Shown here piece by piece: positions 43,987 to 55,824 of a stretch of 64,000 nt of DNA. The translations under genes were made by a program, and so were the position numbers. Position 1 is the stretch's first letter, and every line of letters starts with the position of its first letter. Source of the stretch: Acidisarcina polymorpha (GTDB lineage: Bacteria > Acidobacteriota > Terriglobia > Terriglobales > Acidobacteriaceae). The notes under the pieces are model-generated. The model searched no databases and was not told the origin of the DNA. It worked only from the letters and a program-made list of their open reading frames with translations. The stretch spans positions 6,504,116-6,568,115 of the forward strand of contig NZ_CP030840.1 in NCBI RefSeq assembly GCF_003330725.1. Direction: 5' to 3'.

Positions 43987-44688
43987 TCAAGCTGGTAAAG
44001 CTCCCGTATAGACTGCCATTCCCGCAACCGCGTCGACTTGGATCGCAGCCAGCGCTTCGATCTCCGCCATCTCACGGATTCCTCCAGCGACAATCAACTG
44101 CCGTTCCGTCAGCTCTCGCAAATTCCTGGCAACGGCGAAGGGAAAGCCTTGCATGGTCCCTTCCTTGTCGATGTGAGTGTAAAGGAAGGCGCCGCAGTAA
44201 GGCTCCAGCTCGTTGATCGCATCTTCCGGCGTCAGCTGCACCTGCTCCTTCCATCCCTTCACCGCAATCTTTCCCCGTTTGGTATCGATCCCGCAGACAA
44301 TCCGTTCTTCGCCCACTGCGTGGCTCAATGCGCGCGCGAATTCAGTGTCAACCAGACTGCTTTGCCCCGAAGCACTGTCGGCATGCGAACGAAAGAGCGC
44401 AGAACCGACGATAACTCGCTTGGCGCCGCCCTGCAAAACTTCCAGGGCCTTCTGCACGCTCGATATTCCTCCACCGACCTGACACGGAAGCCGCTGCGAA
44501 ATCCTTTCGATCAGCCCACGATTGTCCCCCTGGCGCATCGCCGCATCGAGATCGATGAGTTGCACCAGGGGATACTCCGCAAAGCGCTCGACCCAGTAAT
44601 CAAAATCATCGAAAGCCAACTCCAGCTTTTCACCTTGAACAAGCTGCACGATCCGGCCGCCCATAAGATCGATCGAAGGAATCAGCAC
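43987..44688 (-). CDS. hisA: 1-(5-phosphoribosyl)-5-[(5-phosphoribosylamino)methylideneamino]imidazole-4-carboxamide isomerase
   Basis: This TIM-barrel enzyme catalyses the ProFAR to PRFAR isomerisation. The 233-residue protein starts [19 protein letters not shown] with the catalytic Asp, has QVGGGISS and the second Asp in [15 protein letters not shown] near residue 130, then [11 protein letters not shown]. It is the last gene of the his operon and overlaps hisF by about 7 bases. Confidence 0.97.
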
Positions 44689-45461
44689 GGCAGCCTCACT
44701 GGAATTCCATGGGTAGCCAATTCGGTCTTCAACTCGCGCGCGCTTGATACCCCGAAATGGAAGATGCTGGCAGCTAAGGCTGCATCCGCGCGTCCTCCAT
44801 CGAAGACCTCGGCGAAGTGGGCGGCGGTGCCTGCGCCGCCTGAAGCAATCACTGGAATCGAAACTGATTCGCTCACCATTGCGGTCAATTCGCAGTCAAA
44901 ACCGTTCCGCATACCATCTGCATCCATTGAAGTAAGAAGGATCTCCCCGGCCCCTCGAGATTCCGCTTCACGCGCCCAATCCAGGACGCGCAGGCCTGTA
45001 TTTTTCCGTCCGCCGGCGATGAAAACCTCTGCGCCTCGGACCGGATCGGCCCCGTCTGCGGCGCGCCGTGCGTCGATGGCAACGATGACCGCCTGAGCAC
45101 CGAAGCTGCGGCCAATCTCCTCGATCAACTCCGGACGCGCCACCGCGGCAGAGTTGATGCTGATCTTATCCGCTCCCGCATCGAAGACCGCCGCTGCATC
45201 ACGCAACTCGCGAATTCCCCCGCCCACCGTGAACGGAATAAATAGCCCTCGCGAAGCTCGCCTGACCGTCTCGATCAATGTGCCGCGCTCCTCGTGGGTC
45301 GCGGTGATGTCGAGCAGCACGATCTCGTCGGCGCCCGCTTCAGCATGAGCAACAGCAAGCGCAGCAGGATCGCCGGCATCGATAAGGTCCACAAACTGGA
45401 TTCCCTTCACGACCCTCCCGTCTTTGACATCGAGGCACGCGATGATTCGCTTCGTTAACAT
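44682..45461 (-). CDS. hisF: Imidazole glycerol phosphate synthase cyclase subunit
   Basis: With HisH this subunit uses ammonia to close the imidazole ring, giving imidazole glycerol phosphate and AICAR. The 259-residue barrel starts [17 protein letters not shown] (catalytic Asp), with [29 protein letters not shown] and the second Asp in VIVAIDARR, then [12 protein letters not shown]. Its stop overlaps hisA. Confidence 0.97.
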
Positions 45462-45465
45462 CCGC

Positions 45466-46077
45466 TCACAATTCCAGGAAGTTTTTCAAGATCGTTAAAC
45501 CAGCCTTACCGGATTTCTCAGGGTGAAATTGAACGCCCATGATATTGCCTGCCTCGACGGCGGCCGTGAATGGGCCTCCATAATTTGTAACAGCCACGGC
45601 ATCTTCCTGCTGGCCGGCACGGTAAGAATGGGTAAAGTAAACATACGAGCCATCCGCCACTCCGGCCATCAGCCTCGATTGAGGACGCACCGAAAGCGAA
45701 TTCCATCCGACATGCGGCACTTTCTCCGCAGTAACAAAGCGTTCGCAATGACCGCGGAGAAAGCCTCCGCCCGAAACTCCCGGCGCTTCGGTACTGCCTT
45801 CAAAGAGCCACTGCAATCCAACGCAAATGCCGAGGAAAGGAACACCATCCGCGATCCTGGAGCGCATGGCCGCGGTCAGTCCGCGGTCCGACAAAAATTG
45901 CGTCGCCGCGAAGTGGCCGACCCCCGGCAAAATGATCTTGGAGGCCTTCGCGACAACTTCAGGATCGGAAGTCACCTCCGGGGTCGCGCCCAGCGCAGTG
46001 ACTGCCTTCACCACGGACGCGAGATTCCCGGCACGGTAGTCGACGATCGTCACGTTACTGGTGTTCGTCCGGATCAT
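45466..46077 (-). CDS. hisH: Imidazole glycerol phosphate synthase glutaminase subunit
   Basis: This class I glutamine amidotransferase supplies ammonia to HisF. The 203-residue protein starts [17 protein letters not shown], has the catalytic Cys in [15 protein letters not shown] near residue 87, and the His-Glu pair in [14 protein letters not shown] near residue 185. Its start overlaps the hisB stop, and it ends four bases before hisF. Confidence 0.97.
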
Positions 46078-46706
46078 AACAACCCTTTGGTGCTCGGAAG
46101 CATATCGCCGAGTTGCTTATCGTGCGAACACGCGACTCGCAGCGCGCGTCCGAAAGCCTTGAAGAGCGCCTCGATTTTGTGATGGCTGGATCGTCCATAC
46201 ATGATCTTCAAGTGAACATTGGCGCGCGCTCCCTGTGCAAAGCCGTCGAAGAAGTCATCGACCAGCTCGCTTTGAAGATCCCCGACCAGCCTCGTCTTCA
46301 CCCTGGTTTTCACGACCGACGCAATCCTGCCGCTCAAGTCGACAGCAGCAATGCCGAGGGTCTCATCCATGGGCATCAGAAAATAGCCAGCGCGCAAAAT
46401 ACCTTTCTTGTCCCCCAGGGCCTGATCGAATGCCTTACCTAGGGTGATGCCGACATCTTCAACGGTGTGATGTTGATCAACGTCCAGGTCGCCGTTGCAC
46501 GTCAACGAAAGGTCGAACGCGCCGTGGCGGGTAAATAATTCAAGCATGTGATCGAAGAACCGAATGCCGGTATGAATGTCGTAGCGACCCTGCCCCTCGA
46601 TCGTTAGGGCCAGAGTAATCTTCGTCTCGTTGGTATCCCGTTGGAGGGCTGCTGTGCGTTTGGAAACTGCAACCAGTTCCTCCGTCGAGGTCTTCTCTGC
46701 CGTCAT
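46074..46706 (-). CDS. hisB: Imidazoleglycerol-phosphate dehydratase
   Basis: This is the monofunctional (dehydratase-only) HisB, converting imidazole glycerol phosphate to imidazole acetol phosphate. The 210-residue protein carries the manganese-binding motifs [13 protein letters not shown] near residue 75 and [14 protein letters not shown] near residue 178, plus [10 protein letters not shown]. There is no N-terminal phosphatase domain, so histidinol-phosphate phosphatase must be encoded elsewhere. The start overlaps the hisC stop, and the stop overlaps hisH. Confidence 0.97.
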
Positions 46707-47821
46707 GTGGTTGCGTCCTTCTCTTGCTGGGCCGTCGCATTCCAGCCGATCTCATCAAGGGATTCGATAAGCGCCTCAACGGCCGTCATCATCTGTGCGC
46801 CCGTCCCAACCGTGATCCGGACACAGCCATTACAACCCGGGTCGCTCGAACGGTCTCGCAGAAGAATTCCTCTCTGCCGCATCTGATCGACAAACTGCGC
46901 GTGCTTTGCACCGATCTTCACCAGCACGAAATTGGCCTCGCTCGTCCAATAGGGGACCTTCAATGCTTCCAACGCGGAAAAGAGCTCCGCACGTGCCGAC
47001 AGGACCTCGCGAACATACCAGTCGAGATACTCCTTGTCGTCGAGTGCCGCGGGAAGGCAGGCCAAGGCAAGCGAGTTGACGCTATAAGGGGATGTTACTC
47101 GTCGCAGCCACCGCACACTCTCAACATCCCCGGCTAACATACCGATTCTCAATCCAGCTAAGCCATAGGCTTTCGAAAAGGTACGTGCCAGCAACAAGTT
47201 TGGGAAGCGTCCAATGAGATCGGCAACCGTGTTTCCAAAGAAGTGAAAATACGCTTCATCGACTAGTACAGCCGCCTGAGGCGCGTGCTCCACAATCTTC
47301 AGTATTTGCTCGCGAGTCGCCGTCTTGCCGGTTGGACTGTTTGGATTGGCAATGGCGATCAGCTTGGTTGCCGGTGTTACAGCGTTCAAGAGCCGCTCAA
47401 GGGGAAACTCAAAGTCGGCCGCAGCCTGCACCCCAACGACCTTGGCCTCGGTTGCCGATGCATAGACCTCATACATGGAGTAAGTCGGAATCGGCAAAAG
47501 TATCTCATCGCCGGCATCGAGGTAGGTCTCGCATAGGACATGAATCGCCTCGTCGACGCCATTGGTGAGCAGCACTTGTTCCGCGGCGAGCCCCAGATGT
47601 TCCGCCACCAGCCGCTCCACTGGTTCACGCTCCGGATACCGGGTCAGGTCGGAGGAACCGATCTCTCGCAATACCCTCAAGACCGCCGGCGAACACTCGA
47701 GTGTGTTCTCGTTGAAGTCGAGACGAAGCCCATTTCGATTGCCCAGCGGAGGATGATATTCCTTCATGCGGAGCACCGCCGCGCGCGGCTTAGGCGAAGT
47801 TGTCAGAGTAGACTCAGGCAC
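46703..47821 (-). CDS. hisC: Histidinol-phosphate aminotransferase
   Basis: This PLP enzyme turns imidazole acetol phosphate into histidinol phosphate. The 372-residue protein has [15 protein letters not shown] near the N-terminus, [30 protein letters not shown] and the PLP lysine in [21 protein letters not shown] chose GTG 47821 because GGAGG lies seven bases upstream. This start overlaps the hisD stop by 8 bases, whereas the first ATG (47920) would overlap by more than 100. The C-terminus ([11 protein letters not shown]) is typical. Confidence 0.95.
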
Positions 47822-49115
47822 CTGCTGACCTCCGTGATGAAGAGGTCTTACCTCTACCGATACTCCGCGAGCGAATAGCGTCAGCGTGACCATCAAGCCC
47901 CTCAGCCTCCGCAATTGCAATTGCAGAAGGGCCCAGCGACTTGAGCGCCGACCGGTTGTAGCTTTGTACCGTGATCAGTTTGATGAAGTCCATTACGCTC
48001 AGGCCGCCCCGCACGCGAGCTAGACCTCCAGTGGGGAGCGTATGGTTGGGCCCGGAAATATAGTCCCCCATGGGTTGGGTTGAGTAATCCCCGACGAAGA
48101 CCGAGCCGGCATTGCGCACCCACGAAAGGTCCGCCTGGCTGTCCACAGTCAGATGTTCCGGAGCCAATCGATTGGTAATCGTTCGCGCCTCATCGAGAGA
48201 ACCGGTGAGAAAGACGAAGCCGCGGGTATGGAGCGATTCCTTAGCGACCGGGTTCGATTTCGCGCGAGTTTTCACCTCATGGATGACCTCCGCCGCCAAA
48301 GAGGGCTGCGTGGTGACTAGAACGGCAAGCGCATGGGGATCATGTTCCGCCTGTGCGACCAGGTCAGCCGCAATGTACGCGGCATTCCCTTTATCGCTCG
48401 TCACCACGATCTCGGTCGGACCCGCAAGCATGTCGATCGCGCAGTCGAAGGCCACCAATCTCTTCGCAGTGGTTACGTACAGGTTTCCCGGCCCGACGAT
48501 CTTATCCACGCGTGCGATCGTCTCCGTGCCATACGCCAGGACTGCGATGGCCTGCGCGCCTCCCATCTGGTAGAAGCAGTCGACCCCCAGCAGATGAGCC
48601 GCGGCAAGAGTCTCGCGAGCGGGATTTGGCGAGGCCACCACGATCCGCTCTACTCCCGCCACTTGTGCCGGAATCACCGTCATCAAAAGCGACGACGGTA
48701 GCGGATGGCGCCCGCTAGGGACATAGCAGCCGACGGCATCAATTGGACGAACAAGTTGTCCGGTGCTAAGCCCGGGTATTGGAGCGAGGCTCCACTTCCC
48801 CGGTAGCTGCCTCTCGGCAAAAGCTCGAATATTTTTCGCCGCTGTTTGAAGAGCACCGCGCACTGCTTCCGGCGTCTCGTTCCAGGCAAGCTGCATCTCG
48901 TCCGGCATGATTTGCAACTGCGACTGTGGCGAGACCCCGTCGAGTTGGGCGACCAGCCTGCGCAGCGCTCTGTCGCCGCTCTTGCGCACTTGACCAATGA
49001 TCTTGCGCACCACCGGAGCAACCGACTCCGCGCTCGACTCCTGGCGTCCTTCCAGCGCCAGCAGAACGCGCTGCGCCTCGGCCTTCCCCCGTCCAGTTGT
49101 CCTGACCAGCTTCAT
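47814..49115 (-). CDS. hisD: Histidinol dehydrogenase
   Basis: This zinc enzyme performs the last two oxidations of histidine synthesis. The 433-residue protein has VPSGRHPLPSSLLMTVIPA near residue 132, DKIVGPGNLYVTTAKR near residue 208, the His/Gln pair in ADLVAQAEHDPHA near residue 250 and HLTVDS near residue 325. ISGPNHTLPTGGLARV with FIKLITVQ follows. The ATG overlaps the hisG stop (TAATG). The C-terminal tail is Ser/Arg-rich beyond the domain. Confidence 0.96.
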   Translation of the reverse strand: MKLVRTTGRGKAEAQRVLLALEGRQESSAESVAPVVRKIIGQVRKSGDRALRRLVAQLDGVSPQSQLQIMPDEMQLAWNETPEAVRGALQTAAKNIRAFAERQLPGKWSLAPIPGLSTGQLVRPIDAVGCYVPSGRHPLPSSLLMTVIPAQVAGVERIVVASPNPARETLAAAHLLGVDCFYQMGGAQAIAVLAYGTETIARVDKIVGPGNLYVTTAKRLVAFDCAIDMLAGPTEIVVTSDKGNAAYIAADLVAQAEHDPHALAVLVTTQPSLAAEVIHEVKTRAKSNPVAKESLHTRGFVFLTGSLDEARTITNRLAPEHLTVDSQADLSWVRNAGSVFVGDYSTQPMGDYISGPNHTLPTGGLARVRGGLSVMDFIKLITVQSYNRSALKSLGPSAIAIAEAEGLDGHADAIRSRSIGRGKTSSSRRSAGA

Positions 49116-49990
49116 TACAAAACGACCTTGTTTAAAGGATATTCAACGATACCAGTTGCGCCCGCCGCCTTGAGCTTCGGAATGACGACACGGACCACGT
49201 CTTCCTGGAGGATCGTGTTCACCGCAACCCAATCCGCATTCGAGAGCGTCGATATCGTTGGCGAGTTCAGGGCGGGAAGCACCGATATCACGGCGGCAAG
49301 ATTTGCCTGTTGCACGTTCAGCATGAGTCCGACATGACCCTGAGCGGCGATCGCCGCATTCAGCATCAAGGCGAGACTGTCGACCTTCTCGCGCTTCCAC
49401 TGATCCTGGTAGGCGGCCTTGTTGGCTATCAGGTGAGTTTCGCTCTCCATGACCGTATCGATAATGCGCAGCCGGTTCGCTTTCAAGGAGCTCCCGGTTT
49501 CGGTCACTTCAACGATCGCATCGGCAAGCGTCGGCGGCTTGACTTCTGTAGCTCCCCAGCTAAACTCGACCTTCACTGATACATTCTTGCTGGCGAAGTA
49601 TCGCTTCGTCACTTCAACTAATTCGGTGGCGATCGTCAACCCGTCGAGGTCTTCAGCACGCTGATAAGTTGAGTCTTCGGGAACAGCGAGCACCCACCTT
49701 ACCTTGCGATTGCTCTGCTTGGCATAGGTCAGGCTCGTGGCGCTGACGACGTCCAGCCCGCTCTCAACCACCCAATCGATCCCAGTCAACCCGGCATCAA
49801 GCACGCCATGCTCGACATAGCGCGCCATCTCCTGCGCGCGAATCAGCATGCACTCAATATCGTCATCATCGATCGAAGGGAAATAGGAACGGCCATTTGC
49901 ATAGATATTCCAGCCGGCGCGCCCAAAAAGCGCAATCGTCGCATCCTGCAGGCTTCCTTTCGGGATGCCAAGTCTTAGCTTGCCGCTCAT
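49115..49990 (-). CDS. hisG: ATP phosphoribosyltransferase, long form
   Basis: This is the first committed enzyme, joining ATP and PRPP. The 291-residue length indicates the long form with a C-terminal ACT-like regulatory domain, which normally confers feedback inhibition by histidine and does not need HisZ. Motifs include [28 protein letters not shown] near residue 65, and [17 protein letters not shown] near residue 165. It overlaps both hisI (ATGA) and hisD (TAATG). Confidence 0.96.
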
Positions 49991-50364
49991 GCCTGCACCT
50001 CTGCTTGCTGTTCATCGCGGCTGACCCGAATCGGACGAGTGAAACAACTGACCGTGCCCTCGTGACAGACCAGGCCATCCCCCTCGACCTCCACGCGGAA
50101 GAGCAGCGTGTCCCGGTCGCAATCGGTCGACGCATCGACCACCCGGAGACGGTTGCCGCTGGTCTCTCCCTTCATCCACAGCTTTTTGCGCGTCCTGCTC
50201 CAGAAAGTAACAAATCCAGTCTCTAAGGTTTTCGCGTAGCTAATCTCATTGAGGAAGCCGACCATCAGCACCTCCAGTGTTTTCGCATCCTGCACGATCG
50301 CAGGAACTAGTCCGTCCATCTTTGCAAAATCGATGCAATTCGGTTCTATCGTCGTCGCTGTCAT
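49987..50364 (-). CDS. hisI: Phosphoribosyl-AMP cyclohydrolase
   Basis: This zinc/magnesium enzyme opens the purine ring in step three of the pathway. The 125-residue HisI-only protein (no HisE part) has [36 protein letters not shown] and the metal-ligand stretch [17 protein letters not shown]...CH. It is the first gene of the operon and lies about 26 bases after the terminator of the attenuator. hisE is not in the window. Confidence 0.95.
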
Positions 50365-50390
50365 CGTCCATCCACTTCATTTTGGGAATG

Positions 50391-50427
50391 AAAAAGCCCG
50401 CCTTCGCTTTCGCGCCGGCGGGCTTTT
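50391..50427 (-). terminator. Leader terminator (attenuator) ahead of the his operon
   Basis: On the minus strand AAAAGCCCGCC and GGCGGGCTTTT make a perfect 11-base stem with a 14-base loop that itself can form GCG-gaaa... pairs, followed by five T. It lies between the His-rich leader peptide (stop at 50448) and the hisI start (50364), so unless it is prevented from forming, transcription of the operon should stop here. The stem's palindrome also gives A/T runs on the plus strand. Confidence 0.9.
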
Positions 50428-50474
50428 ACTGATCTCTTGGTTTGGGCTTATTCGTGCCCGGAAGAGTCCGCCGG
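50415..50474 (-). promoter_or_regulatory. Candidate antiterminator pairing in the his leader RNA
   Basis: The leader RNA segment CCGGCGG (codons 19-21 of the leader peptide, 50474-50468) is a perfect complement of CCGCCGG in the 5' arm of the terminator (50421-50415). A further segment CCGGGC just before the leader stop can pair with GCCCG of the same arm. Pairing would compete with the terminator stem. By-eye folding only; not computed. Confidence 0.55.
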
Positions 50475-50528
50475 CATGTTCGTCACATGGTGATGGAGAG
50501 AATGACGATGATGTGCGCGAATCTGCAT
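50448..50528 (-). CDS. hisL: Histidine-rich leader peptide of the his operon attenuator
   Basis: This 26-codon frame (ATG 50528 to TAA 50448) has His at residues 6, 7, 9, 12, 13, 14 and 25, with six of them in nine codons (HHRHSLHHH). Ribosome stalling at these codons when charged His-tRNA is scarce would favour the antiterminator and allow transcription into hisI. It is preceded by a consensus -35 box and ends 21 bases before the terminator stem. It is too short to be a normal gene, and its His content and place are those of an attenuator leader. It has no clear ribosome site; a promoter start at about 50531 would make it nearly leaderless. Confidence 0.85.
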   Translation of the reverse strand: MQIRAHHRHSLHHHVTNMPADSSGHE

Positions 50529-50530
50529 CC

Positions 50531-50566
50531 TGTAGAAAACCTACAATGCGGCTCCATCATTGTCAA
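50531..50566 (-). promoter_or_regulatory. Probable his operon promoter with palindrome
   Basis: On the minus strand a consensus TTGACA (50566-50561) is followed by a 17-base spacer and TAGGTT (50543-50538), a modest -10. The palindrome TGTAG-gtttt-CTACA (50545-50531) covers the -10 and the expected start and could be an operator. Confidence 0.6.
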
Positions 50567-50708: not shown

Positions 50709-50909
50709 ATGGCACACGAAGCGCACAAGAAAGCAGCAGAGCATCATACCGCCGCCGCAGAGCACCACAGCAAGGCGGCTGAACACCACGAGGCGGGCAA
50801 CCACGAGCAGGGACATGAACACTCTGCCAAGGCGCACGAGCACTCGAGCGAAGCCCACAAGCACTCCACCGACGCGCACGCAAAATCCTCTGCCCACGCC
50901 GGGAAATAG
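50709..50909 (+). CDS. Histidine/alanine-rich small repeat protein
   Basis: This 66-residue protein is made almost wholly of short helical repeats of the AAEHH / KAAEHH type (EHHTAAAEHH, SKAAEHH) followed by AHEHSSEAHKHS. About a quarter of its residues are His. Nothing marks a membrane segment or signal. Similar small His-rich proteins occur in several bacteria without known function. Histidine richness suggests metal binding or pH buffering, but that is inference. ATG 50709 has GAGG eight bases ahead; the frame is open back to 50664. It is divergent from the his operon and closes with a perfect terminator hairpin. Confidence 0.75.
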   Translation: MAHEAHKKAAEHHTAAAEHHSKAAEHHEAGNHEQGHEHSAKAHEHSSEAHKHSTDAHAKSSAHAGK

Positions 50910-51726: not shown

Positions 51727-52155
51727 CTAATTCTCAGCGAGCGTCAGGGGCTTACCTTCAGATACGTAGTTACGGTTCCACTTAGGAATCTCTACGACGT
51801 AAGATCCCGGCTTGGTGATGACCGCCTGGCAGCCAAGGCGGGAATTCAATTGTGGATCGGCGGCCATATCGAGTCGATCGAGCTCATCATCGTCGGCGGC
51901 GCTCAGTCCATCAGCTCCCTCCTCGACCCAGATGTGACAAGTGGTGCAGGCACAAGAACCGCCGCAGGCATGGTCCAGAAAAATACCAAAATTTTCAGCG
52001 ACATCGAGGAAGGACATGGGCTTGCCATGGTGGTCGTACGGAAGAGTCCCGTACTTGAACTCAACCGTGCGGCCTTCTGGTTGGAAGGTCACCCGCACCA
52101 TATCATCGCCAGGTGGTTGAGTGAGATCAATCGGCTTATTAGAGGAATCGGTCAT
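51727..52155 (-). CDS. fdx: Adrenodoxin-type [2Fe-2S] ferredoxin
   Basis: This 142-residue ferredoxin of the isc operon supplies electrons for cluster assembly. The cysteine set HACGGSCACTTC near residue 64 and RLGC near residue 106 gives the four ligands (C-x5-C-x2-C...C). The N-terminus is slightly extended by a Pro/Asp-rich region. It is located between hscA and iscX. Confidence 0.94.
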   Translation of the reverse strand: MTDSSNKPIDLTQPPGDDMVRVTFQPEGRTVEFKYGTLPYDHHGKPMSFLDVAENFGIFLDHACGGSCACTTCHIWVEEGADGLSAADDDELDRLDMAADPQLNSRLGCQAVITKPGSYVVEIPKWNRNYVSEGKPLTLAEN

Positions 52156-52221
52156 CTTATCGCTTTCCGTATAGGTTGCAAATGTAACTTGAGTGGCTTC
52201 ATAACTCGTGACGCGTTGCAG

Positions 52222-54165
52222 TTATTCAAACTGCGCTTTGCCAAATGGATGCGGCGCGGTAGGGCCCTCTCCCAGGCCGCTTCCAGCTGCCTCCATCGTC
52301 TTTCCATGCAAGGCGTAGGCGACCGTGCTATCCATCATCAACTCCGCGAAACGATGCGTCGCTCGATCCAACGCAGATACCGCAGCCTGTATTAGCTTGA
52401 AGTCATCGCCATCCTTCAGGACCGAGAGCTCATCGCGAAGCAAGAATATCTGCTCGCGCTCTTCAGTCGTCAGTTGCTCCCATGCGGATTGCATCGGGGC
52501 CTTCGCAACCGCTGCCAGGATGGTGTTTGCCTCGTTCCTCGCTTCAATCAACTGCCGCTGTTCAATGTCCGATTCAGCGTAATCGAAGGATTCGAGGATC
52601 ATCGATTCCACTTGCTCATCGGTCAACCCATACGTGGGCTTGACCTCGATCTCCGCCTGCTTGCCACTCCGCTGCTCGCGGGCCGAGACTTGCAGGATTC
52701 CATTCGCATCGATAAGAAATTTCACCTCGATCCGCGGCAGCCCCGCGCTCATCGGAGGAATTCCTTTCAGATCGAATCGGGCCAGCGATCTGCAGTCCTT
52801 GGCGAGTTCGCGTTCGCCCTGCACGACATGGATCGCGACATTCGTCTGACCCTCGACCCCGGTAGTGAAATGCTCAGTGGCCGAAGCAGGGATCGTTGAG
52901 TTGCGCTGGATGACCTTGGCGACGACTCCCCCTAATGCCTCGATGCCGAGCGACAGTGGAGTCACATCCAGTAGCAGCATGTTCTCGGTCGCCTGCGAAC
53001 CGCGAGAGAGAATATTAGCCTGCACGGCGGCCCCAAGCGCAACCACCTCGTCCGGATTTAACTCGATATGCGGTTTCTTTCCGCGGGCGCTCAAGCCGAA
53101 CAATTCATCCGTCAGAGCGCGCACCCTGGGGATACGGGTCGACCCTCCAACCAGCACCACTTCGTCGATCTGCTCCGCGCTGATCCCCGCATCTTTAAGC
53201 GCCTGCCTGCATGGATCCGCAGTCCGATCAAGGACAGGCTGGATGAGCAACTCAAATTGTGACCGCTCAATCTTCCGCTGATATCTTGCGCCACCCGGCA
53301 GCTCTACATTGAGAAGCGCTGCATCGTGCGTGGATAGTGCGATCTTAGCTTCGATGACCGCCTTGCGGATCGCTTGGACCGCCTCTCCACTGCCGCGCAG
53401 ATCAATTTCCTGCTCACCATGTATGTCATCAAGCGCGATCGCAATCAGTAAATTATCGATATCATCGCCGCCGAGGTGAGTATCTCCATTGGTCGCCATG
53501 ACCTCGAAGATCCCCTCATGTAATTTGAGGATGGATATATCGAAGGTACCGCCGCCAAGGTCATAGACAGCGACGATGCCGTCGTGCTGTCGATCAAGGC
53601 CGTAGGCTAGCGCGGCCGCAGTTGGCTCGTTCACCAATCGCAAAATATCAAGCCCGGCCATCCGGCCTGCATCTTTGGTCGCCTGACGCTGCGCATCGTT
53701 GAAGTAAGCCGGCACAGTCACAACTGCTTTGCTCACGGGCTCGCCGAAATACCGTTCTGCATTGCGTTTCAGCTGGCGGAGCACAAATGCCGAAATCTCC
53801 GATGGAGTGTAGTCGTTTTCGCCAACTCGAAGCCGCAACACCTCACCTGGCTGCATATTTGCCGCCAGGTGGAATGGAAAAAGCTTCAGCTCTTCCTGGA
53901 TGTCCTCGAGCCCGCGGCCCATCAGTCGCTTGGCGGAGTAAACCACCCGTTCCGGCGCACTCGCCAGATACCTCGCCGCGCCGTTTCCGACGATGACCCG
54001 CTGGGTAGACGCTTCGGCGCTGTCTCTTTGGGGAATGGCCACAACCGAGGGGACCAGCGAAGAACCATCTTCGCCGGGAATTACCACCGGCTCCGCACCC
54101 TGCATATAGGCGACGAGCGAATTTGTGGTGCCTAAATCAATACCAATAACGCGTTCTTCTGCCAT
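52222..54165 (-). CDS. hscA: Fe-S cluster chaperone HscA (Hsp70 family)
   Basis: This specialised Hsp70 binds the LPPVK motif of IscU and drives cluster release. The 647-residue protein starts [16 protein letters not shown], has [14 protein letters not shown] near residue 200, [13 protein letters not shown] near residue 345 and a complete substrate-binding domain ([20 protein letters not shown]). It is placed directly after hscB. The matching LPPVK motif is present in the neighbouring IscU. Confidence 0.95.
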
Positions 54166-54195
54166 CTCTTCCTGTCTAAGAACTTTGCCCGAAAA

Positions 54196-54930
54196 CTATG
54201 TCTCGATCGCCTCATCGACACTGTTCACGAGGTTGCGAATATATCGCCGCCGATCGAGCAACGCCGCAAGCTCCTCGCGAACCGCCGTTCGTCTTTGATC
54301 GTCGCCGCCGTCAAGCTCAGTGTCCCATTTCTCCCAGAGTCTCTCTAAAGACGAATTCGTCTCCCGCAGCTGGCCATCGAAGTTAGCTTTAGCCGCTAGC
54401 AGATCTTGCTGAAGCTGCGGATCGACGTCACCGGTTTGCTTGTTCATCCGCATCTCATCGAGCTGCATGTTGAGCTCAAATACTTCTTCAAGCAGGTCGG
54501 CCGGAATGCGGTCTTCTTTTCTTGGGCCGCCTTCATCCGTGCTCGGCGCGCCCTCTAGCTTGAGCAAGTACTCGGTCCGCCGAATCGGATCTTTCAACGT
54601 TCGATAGGCGTCGTTTACCAGCGAACTATTCTCGAGGCTCCACTCTTGTTCCTGCTGACTCGCTCGGGAGTAAACGTCGGGATGCAGCCGCCGGCTCAAC
54701 CGATAAAATTCGCGTTCCAGAGAGGCGACATCTAGCCTCAGCTTTCGCGGCAGAGTGAAGACTTGAAAATAGTCAATGTCACTCGACAGCAATTGCACGC
54801 GGCCGCAGGATCCGCAAAATAACTCAGCTCCGTTCAAGGGTGTGGCGCAGGACCAGCAGACTCGATCGCCCCCTGCACCATGCTTGCTATCCGAACCCGC
54901 CGCGATCGTCGTCTTAGAAGAAGAGGTCAT
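54196..54930 (-). CDS. hscB: J-domain co-chaperone HscB with N-terminal four-cysteine motif
   Basis: HscB brings IscU to HscA and stimulates its ATPase. The 244-residue protein has the J-domain HPD motif (LHPDVY), LVNDAYRTLKDPIRRTEYLL and the C-terminal IscU-binding helices (ELNMQLDEMR). Before the J domain there is a zinc-ribbon motif CWSC...CGSC near residue 24. This is absent from the E. coli protein but resembles the N-terminal domain of eukaryotic HSC20. ATG 54930 overlaps the iscA stop. A C-terminal extension of about 30 residues follows. Confidence 0.92.
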   Translation of the reverse strand: MTSSSKTTIAAGSDSKHGAGGDRVCWSCATPLNGAELFCGSCGRVQLLSSDIDYFQVFTLPRKLRLDVASLEREFYRLSRRLHPDVYSRASQQEQEWSLENSSLVNDAYRTLKDPIRRTEYLLKLEGAPSTDEGGPRKEDRIPADLLEEVFELNMQLDEMRMNKQTGDVDPQLQQDLLAAKANFDGQLRETNSSLERLWEKWDTELDGGDDQRRTAVREELAALLDRRRYIRNLVNSVDEAIET

Positions 54931-55310
54931 GCAGAAAAAGAAGAACCGCACCCGCAGGACTTGGTCGAGTTCGGGTTGATGAAGTTGAATCCCTGCCGCA
55001 TCAGTGTTTCTTCGTAATCAAGAATCATCCCGTGAAGATAGATAAATGACTTCGGGTCGACAAAGATCCGGATGTCGTCAAACTGGTAAATACGATCGCG
55101 CTCCCGCGGCTGTGTGTCGAAGCGAATGTTGTAGGAAAGCCCCGAACAACCACCGCCGGTGATGCCGAGTCGAAGACCGCCTTCGACTGGCGAGACGTTC
55201 TCCTTTGCCATCGCGACCCGGATGCGCTTCAAAGCCCGCTCCGTAACCTGGATGCCCTTTTGGGCAGGCGCAACGTTCTCGGCATTGCGAATTGTCTCTG
55301 CTGCAATCAT
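54927..55310 (-). CDS. iscA: A-type Fe-S carrier protein IscA
   Basis: This 127-residue A-type carrier has the three conserved cysteines: GGGCSGLSY near residue 55 and the C-terminal CGCG (SCGCGSSF). It transfers clusters or iron to targets. ATG 55310 was chosen because the family domain follows directly; the upstream frame only adds non-conserved residues. It sits between iscU and hscB in the operon. Confidence 0.93.
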   Translation of the reverse strand: MIAAETIRNAENVAPAQKGIQVTERALKRIRVAMAKENVSPVEGGLRLGITGGGCSGLSYNIRFDTQPRERDRIYQFDDIRIFVDPKSFIYLHGMILDYEETLMRQGFNFINPNSTKSCGCGSSFSA

Positions 55311-55401
55311 CCCGTTTCCGTTTCCTCTGACACTTATTAAAAGAAGGTCGGTAACTCGCAAGCCAACGACCTTCTCAAGGCATAGCCCAGCGAACGCAGA
55401 C

Positions 55402-55824
55402 TTACTGCGCGGCAACCGCATGAACCGGAGCGCTTTCGGCCACGCCGTTTTTCTTCTTCCAGTCGCCAATTGCCGCGCGAATCGCATCTTCGGCAAGCAC
55501 CGAGCAGTGGATCTTCACCGGGGGCAGCGCGAGTTCCTTGACGATGTCGGTGTTCTTGATCTGCATCGCTTCTTCCACCGTCTTACCCTTCACCCACTCC
55601 GTCGCGAGCGACGAAGACGCAATGGCCGACCCACAGCCGAAGGTCTTGAACTTGGCTTCCTCAATGATCTGGGTCTCCGGATTGACCTTGATCTGCAGAC
55701 GCATCACGTCGCCGCACTCCGGAGCGCCAACCAGGCCGGTTCCTACTTCGCTGCTGTTCTTGTCCATCTGGCCCACATTGCGGGGGTTGTTGTAATGATC
55801 AATTACCTTATCGCTGTATGCCAT
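55402..55824 (-). CDS. iscU: Fe-S cluster scaffold IscU
   Basis: This 140-residue scaffold holds the nascent cluster. The three ligand cysteines are in PECGDVM, TFGCGSAIASSS and KIHCSVLAEDAI, and the HscA-recognition motif LPPVK precedes the third. The ATG has GGGAG about eight bases upstream. A C-terminal tail of about 12 residues extends beyond the E. coli length. Confidence 0.97.
   Translation of the reverse strand: MAYSDKVIDHYNNPRNVGQMDKNSSEVGTGLVGAPECGDVMRLQIKVNPETQIIEEAKFKTFGCGSAIASSSLATEWVKGKTVEEAMQIKNTDIVKELALPPVKIHCSVLAEDAIRAAIGDWKKKNGVAESAPVHAVAAQ

Follow-up and report, generated by a model that had tools for sequence, protein, structure and literature searches.

A predicted ribosome-mediated attenuator with a probably near-leaderless leader peptide upstream of the his operon in Acidobacteriota

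INTRODUCTION

In the hisL attenuator of Escherichia coli and Salmonella (Rfam RF00514, His_leader), a leader peptide containing histidine codons is encoded directly before the his operon, and an antiterminator competes with an intrinsic terminator. The acidobacterial element described here shares both properties. It differs from hisL in that its first gene is hisI instead of hisG, in that its leader is probably near-leaderless, and in that the 5′ half of its antiterminator (segment 2) is part of the leader frame itself.

Among known attenuators, trpL in Sinorhizobium meliloti (PMC7298713) and ilvB in Corynebacterium glutamicum (PMC11857589) have leaderless leaders. The trpL RNA (rnTrpL) begins at the leader ATG and is likewise subject to an antiterminator/terminator switch, although there the amino acid is tryptophan, the peptide has 14 residues and functions in trans have been shown (PMC7298713). 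The C. glutamicum ilvBNC attenuator, for which a three-hairpin model has been drawn up, also has a leaderless leader peptide, and it resembles the present element in combining an early in-frame hairpin, for which a pause was proposed, with an antiterminator and a terminator. However, it senses branched-chain amino acids, belongs to another phylum and has its first hairpin in the initiation region, whereas the first hairpin here (H1) starts with the last His codon (PMC11857589).

Attenuators with His-codon leaders have also been predicted in Firmicutes, for hisS/hisZ in Bacillus (PMC2965389) and for his genes in the Bacillus cereus group, Eubacteriales and Erysipelotrichales (PMC9413887). These predictions likewise have runs of His codons before a terminator/antiterminator of histidine genes outside Proteobacteria, but they differ in phylum and in genes, and they are not known to have a near-leaderless layout (PMC2965389, PMC9413887). 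Uninterrupted runs of three to five His codons are reported for the Firmicutes leaders (PMC9413887), compared with five to nine His within twelve codons in the leaders of Acidobacteriaceae. The first-pass annotation of the DNA studied here had presented its his attenuator as lying outside the proteobacteria, which is correct for the phylum, but His-codon attenuators outside the proteobacteria had already been predicted in Firmicutes. The novelty thus lies in the phylum, the breadth and the layout.

RESULTS

A His-codon leader frame and an intrinsic terminator precede the his operon

The window, by which we mean the whole stretch of 64,000 nucleotides analysed, comes from contig NZ_CP030840.1 of Acidisarcina polymorpha, and all positions are counted from its first letter. 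The first-pass annotation had read from its letters a 26-codon minus-strand frame with six His codons in residues 6–14, a terminator 21 bases later, hisI 26 bases beyond that, and a leader motif, CCGGCGG, perfectly complementary to the terminator 5′ arm. Direct reading of the sequence confirmed the frame (MQIRAHHRHSLHHHVTNMPADSSGHE; 50448–50528, minus strand), with its ATG at 50528, its TAA at 50448 and 26 codons. The His codons are residues 6, 7, 9, 12, 13 and 14 (six in nine), so that the run in the window's own leader is a broken one, HHRHSLHHH, a point against the attenuator reading. Since an in-frame TAG lies 15 nt 5′ of the ATG, this ATG is the natural start in the window. The terminator is also present (50391–50423, minus strand; −22.1 kcal/mol), with the sequence GCCCGCC GGCGCGAAAGCGAA GGCGGGC and then TTTTT. 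Its stem arms occupy 50423–50417 and 50402–50396 and its T run 50395–50391, and in relatives 95.3% of cells were paired. The gap between the leader stop codon and the terminator is, however, 24 nt rather than 21, the two figures differing with the base chosen as the first of the stem, while the T run does end 26 nt before hisI. The complementarity is exact: CCGGCGG (segment 2; 50468–50474, minus strand, leader codons 19–21) is the perfect complement of CCGCCGG (segment 3; 50415–50421, minus strand) in the terminator 5′ arm, with 50474–50468 facing 50421–50415. The fold of the 181-nt leader is 3.8 sd below its dinucleotide shuffles.

The first gene predicted to be regulated is hisI (phosphoribosyl-AMP cyclohydrolase; 49987–50364, minus strand), which matched NF000768 with 134 bits against a cut-off of 126. 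The rest of the operon, hisG, hisD, hisC, hisB, hisH, hisF and hisA (43987–49990, minus strand), was assigned by family matches; the hisA match fell below its curated cut-off, and this gene was named by best family and position. All eight downstream genes, in the order hisI-G-D-C-B-H-F-A, thus belong to histidine biosynthesis. As in ribosome-mediated attenuators, a run of codons for the operon's amino acid lies in a short leader frame, and an intrinsic terminator stands between that frame and the first structural gene. Scanning of the ilv/leu region (L208), trpE (L209) and pheS (L210) of the same genome, by a procedure that does recover the his leader, found no leader peptide with a terminator. 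Such leaders are therefore not a general habit of the genome, as far as we looked, and judging by these three other loci attenuation may be particular to his there.

The arrangement is conserved in relatives

A HisI genome scan gave 80 loci from Acidobacteriaceae and near relatives, and relative and phylum-wide searches added more. Terracidiphilus gabretensis, Silvibacterium bohemicum and Granulicella aggregans, all among the 80, are cultured species that have this leader. A short homologous His-rich leader frame with a terminator was found before hisI in 124 of 128 loci of the window's class, mostly Acidobacteriaceae, so that the His-codon run and terminator, on whose presence in relatives the first-pass annotation had staked its reading, are kept. 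A further 64 loci were drawn from a phylum sample. Outside the window's class, a homologous His-rich leader with a terminator precedes hisI in 15 genomes of six families; two other frames (L187 and L189) were left uncounted, since each has just three His codons and neither is followed by a convincing terminator. By these comparisons, the predicted attenuator is conserved across two classes of Acidobacteriota. In many of the genomes lacking a His leader, hisI lies in mid-operon with the apparent end of hisF just before it, and no leader is therefore expected in front of hisI there. The leader peptides differ strongly between families. In other families of the window's class (family f2; L116, L118, L121, L122 and L123) the leaders are much diverged (e.g. 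MTRCSHRHAHHSHAHGARGSGLL) and the terminator sequences are different.

The antiterminator is supported by covariation

Pairing between segments 2 and 3 is possible at all seven positions in 73 of 105 Acidobacteriaceae loci, and variants include TTGGCGG with CCGCTAA. RNAalifold, applied to 76 aligned leaders, returned the antiterminator unprompted, with compensatory changes in five of its eight pairs. When the antiterminator was extended to ten pairs (Acidobacteriaceae), 92.7% of cells were paired. Its covariation score was 0.254, compared with 0.182 for shuffled and ≤0.106 for slid controls, and lay above all 500 shuffles and all slides. Base changes were also counted as events on a tree built from the DNA of hisI and the downstream his genes, without the leader; of 65 changes in the antiterminator, 48 left the two bases paired, whereas the slid control gave 12 of 64. 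Thus segment 2 and the pairing that had been read from the window alone are supported by compensatory changes and tree counts, and, as tested in Acidobacteriaceae, the antiterminator shares the 5′ arm of the terminator and the two are mutually exclusive.

These changes also bear on whether the frame might instead encode a functional His-rich peptide, for example a metal-binding one, with the terminator ending its small mRNA and hisI having a promoter further down. His-rich peptides bind metals, and a leader RNA that stops at the terminator would by itself make up a full small mRNA. An attenuator peptide, peTrpL of S. meliloti, can indeed act in trans (PMC7298713). However, residues other than His track the terminator arm, CCG, TCG and TTG occurring with CCGCCGG, CCGCCGA and CCGCTAA, respectively, as RNA pairing predicts; the downstream genes serve histidine biosynthesis; and the leader peptides, besides their divergence between families, have no family match in Pfam or NCBIfam. 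A functional peptide is therefore an improbable explanation.

Control could also act at the level of translation, the structures hiding or freeing the hisI ribosome-binding site, or reinitiation from the leader feeding hisI; reinitiation coupled to a leader has been suggested to occur in many bacteria, Acidobacteria among them (PMC4833913). However, a GC-rich 3′ hairpin followed by a T run is found in nearly all loci, and the leader stop codon sits 83 nt 5′ of hisI, far above the roughly 10–13 nt reported for reinitiation, which makes control of this kind very improbable. Finally, although a lone short frame is weak evidence and one further stretch in the window reaches at least five His codons in nine, chance His codons beside an unrelated terminator can be dismissed, because stretches with at least six in nine occur once in the window and not at all in 12 Markov-shuffled 64-kb sequences, and because conservation with fixed spacing in 124 of 128 loci refutes it.

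Promoter layout and a probably near-leaderless start

A −35-like hexamer, TTGACA (50561–50566, minus strand), lies 38 nt before the leader ATG and is followed, after a 17-nt spacer, by a −10-like hexamer, TAGGTT (50538–50543, minus strand; TANNNT), which ends 9 nt before the ATG. A strict promoter scan of the window did not list this promoter, because TAGGTT matches TATAAT at only three of six positions. Among relatives, 96 of 97 loci have a TTGAC-type hexamer 34–42 nt (mode 38) 5′ of the leader ATG. The near-leaderless start that the first-pass annotation had read from a −10 some 10 bases before the ATG is supported by a −35 match upstream of the ATG in 107 of 108 family (Acidobacteriaceae) loci. 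The best −10 candidate is TANNNT in 102 of 107 family loci, mostly at a spacing of 17–18, and in 74 of 107 the −10-like hexamer stops 8–9 nt short of the ATG. This count is somewhat biased, since a single ATG was possible in 84 of the 108 loci and the ambiguous starts were settled with the help of promoter distance. Shine-Dalgarno-like motifs occur in only 4% of family loci. With the −10-like hexamer usually 8–9 nt from the ATG and no Shine-Dalgarno sequence, the leader is probably near-leaderless, and transcription would start at about 50531–50533, a few bases before the ATG.

As far as can be judged from sequence, this layout matches the TA-led class of leaderless genes, in which a −10-like TANNNT about 10–12 bp before the start is found together with no Shine-Dalgarno sequence, as here (PMC3160421). 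Leaderless genes average 13.3% in three Acidobacteria (PMC3160421).

Ribosome position and hairpins H1 and P2

In 88 of 101 loci, exactly 15 nt separate the last His codon of the run from segment 2, while the spacing between the ATG and segment 2 varies from 36 to 69 nt. A ribosome covers ∼12 nt ahead of the A-site codon. Thus a ribosome stalled at the last His codon would just clear segment 2, the control codons being placed, as in ribosome-mediated attenuators, so that the antiterminator segment stays clear of the stalled ribosome. In most loci segment 2 is found 24–27 nt upstream of the stop codon of the leader frame to which it belongs, and it is at the edge of the footprint when the ribosome sits on the stop codon. 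Folding with the ribosome footprint masked, a check proposed in the first-pass annotation, gave median segment 2:3 pairing probabilities of 0.97 when the ribosome was stalled on the last His codon, 0.91 when it sat on the stop codon and 0.86 when no ribosome was present. The stalled and terminating states were thus not separated thermodynamically, which tells against the attenuator model unless co-transcriptional timing and steric blocking drive the switch. Since segment 2 is at the trailing edge of the terminating ribosome and free under naive masking, we infer that this ribosome blocks the pairing from a position between segments 2 and 3, where it would open a further hairpin, P2.

P2 (CUCUU..GGGC ACGAAUAA GCCC..AAGAG; 50434–50466, minus strand) has the leader stop codon in its loop. 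The stop codon is enclosed by at least four P2 pairs in 99% of 101 loci, compared with 64% of shuffles, and stem variants are visible among relatives (GGCC:GGCC, GGCU:AGCC and GGGC:GCCC). Its fold z is ∼−3.1 in the window, the median over loci being only −0.75. RNAalifold on clade alignments returned the antiterminator only and did not recover P2, so that P2 rests on per-sequence folds and visible compensations; a consensus fold of just the frame before the stop codon gave no structure. The other hairpin, H1 (CAUGU GACGA ACAUG; 50475–50489, minus strand), starts at the last His codon and ends on the base immediately 5′ of segment 2. For H1, 93.9% of cells were paired and the covariation score exceeded all 500 shuffles, and the tree test gave moderate support, with 25 of 47 changes leaving the bases paired and 21 of 62 doing so in the slid control. 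H1 is possibly a pause hairpin or a guard of segment 2. Both hairpins look conserved, and both are less well supported than the antiterminator.

DISCUSSION

On the sequence comparisons above, we put at a little under 0.9 the probability that this element controls the his operon by ribosome-mediated transcription attenuation in response to charged histidyl-tRNA. Conservation, covariation and promoter layout all support the first-pass reading of classical-type his attenuation in an acidobacterium. In the proposed mechanism, transcription would start a few bases 5′ of the ATG, and a ribosome would initiate at the near-leaderless 5′ end and trail RNA polymerase. When histidyl-tRNA is short, the ribosome would stall on the His codons; with the last of these in the A site, its leading edge would be ∼2–3 nt short of segment 2, which, as geometry and covariation suggest, would then be free to pair with the emerging segment 3. 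This pairing would prevent the terminator from forming, and the his genes would be transcribed. When histidine is plentiful, the ribosome would reach the stop codon, where its footprint would cover P2, which lies between segments 2 and 3, and hinder their pairing. Segment 3 would then pair with the terminator 3′ arm, and transcription would end before hisI. Speculatively, H1 may pause the polymerase so that the ribosome catches up, or may guard segment 2.

A more specific version, which we offer tentatively and hold to be doubtful, is that this is a distinct layout in which P2 joins the antiterminator halves, the terminating ribosome opens P2 and H1 times the polymerase, and that it is ancestral to at least two Acidobacteriota classes. 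The off-switch would in that case be the opening of P2 rather than the covering of an antiterminator half.

For the attenuator as such, this is a known principle, well supported, in a phylum for which we found no earlier description, and in a compact near-leaderless layout. A search of the literature on attenuation and leader peptides in Acidobacteria found no report of a his attenuator; most subscription papers were outside that search, and we therefore claim no priority. The assignment, with covariation support, extends across a large phylum and offers a well-defined example in which to study how attenuation operates with a leader peptide made from a near-leaderless RNA.

Searches of Rfam, Pfam and NCBIfam gave no matching family at usable scores. 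The RF00514 His_leader covariance model gave no hit, and hence none at its gathering score, either in the window at E values up to 10 or at E values up to 1 in 16 relatives. Weak Rfam matches to Bp2_287, Thr_leader and Trp_leader fell far short of the respective gathering scores and we took them for chance hits, though two of these families are themselves attenuators. The Thr_leader matches, which cover the his leader element (window 50387–50529, minus strand, 21.3 bits; L008 191–333, 28.6 bits; gathering score 55), probably reflect a shared attenuator shape or chance.

A divergent gene at 50710–50909 (plus strand) encodes a 65-residue His-rich repeat protein (MAHEAHKKAAEHHTAAAEHHSKAAEHHEAG...) without a Pfam match; it was considered as a conserved partner of the leader and rejected, as it adjoins only one of 124 leaders. 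The strand that carries the his operon also has, upstream of it, a gene cluster (51727–55496, minus strand) whose products, as named by reading the translations, look like a 2Fe-2S ferredoxin, an Hsp70 chaperone, a J-domain protein and an IscA-like protein.
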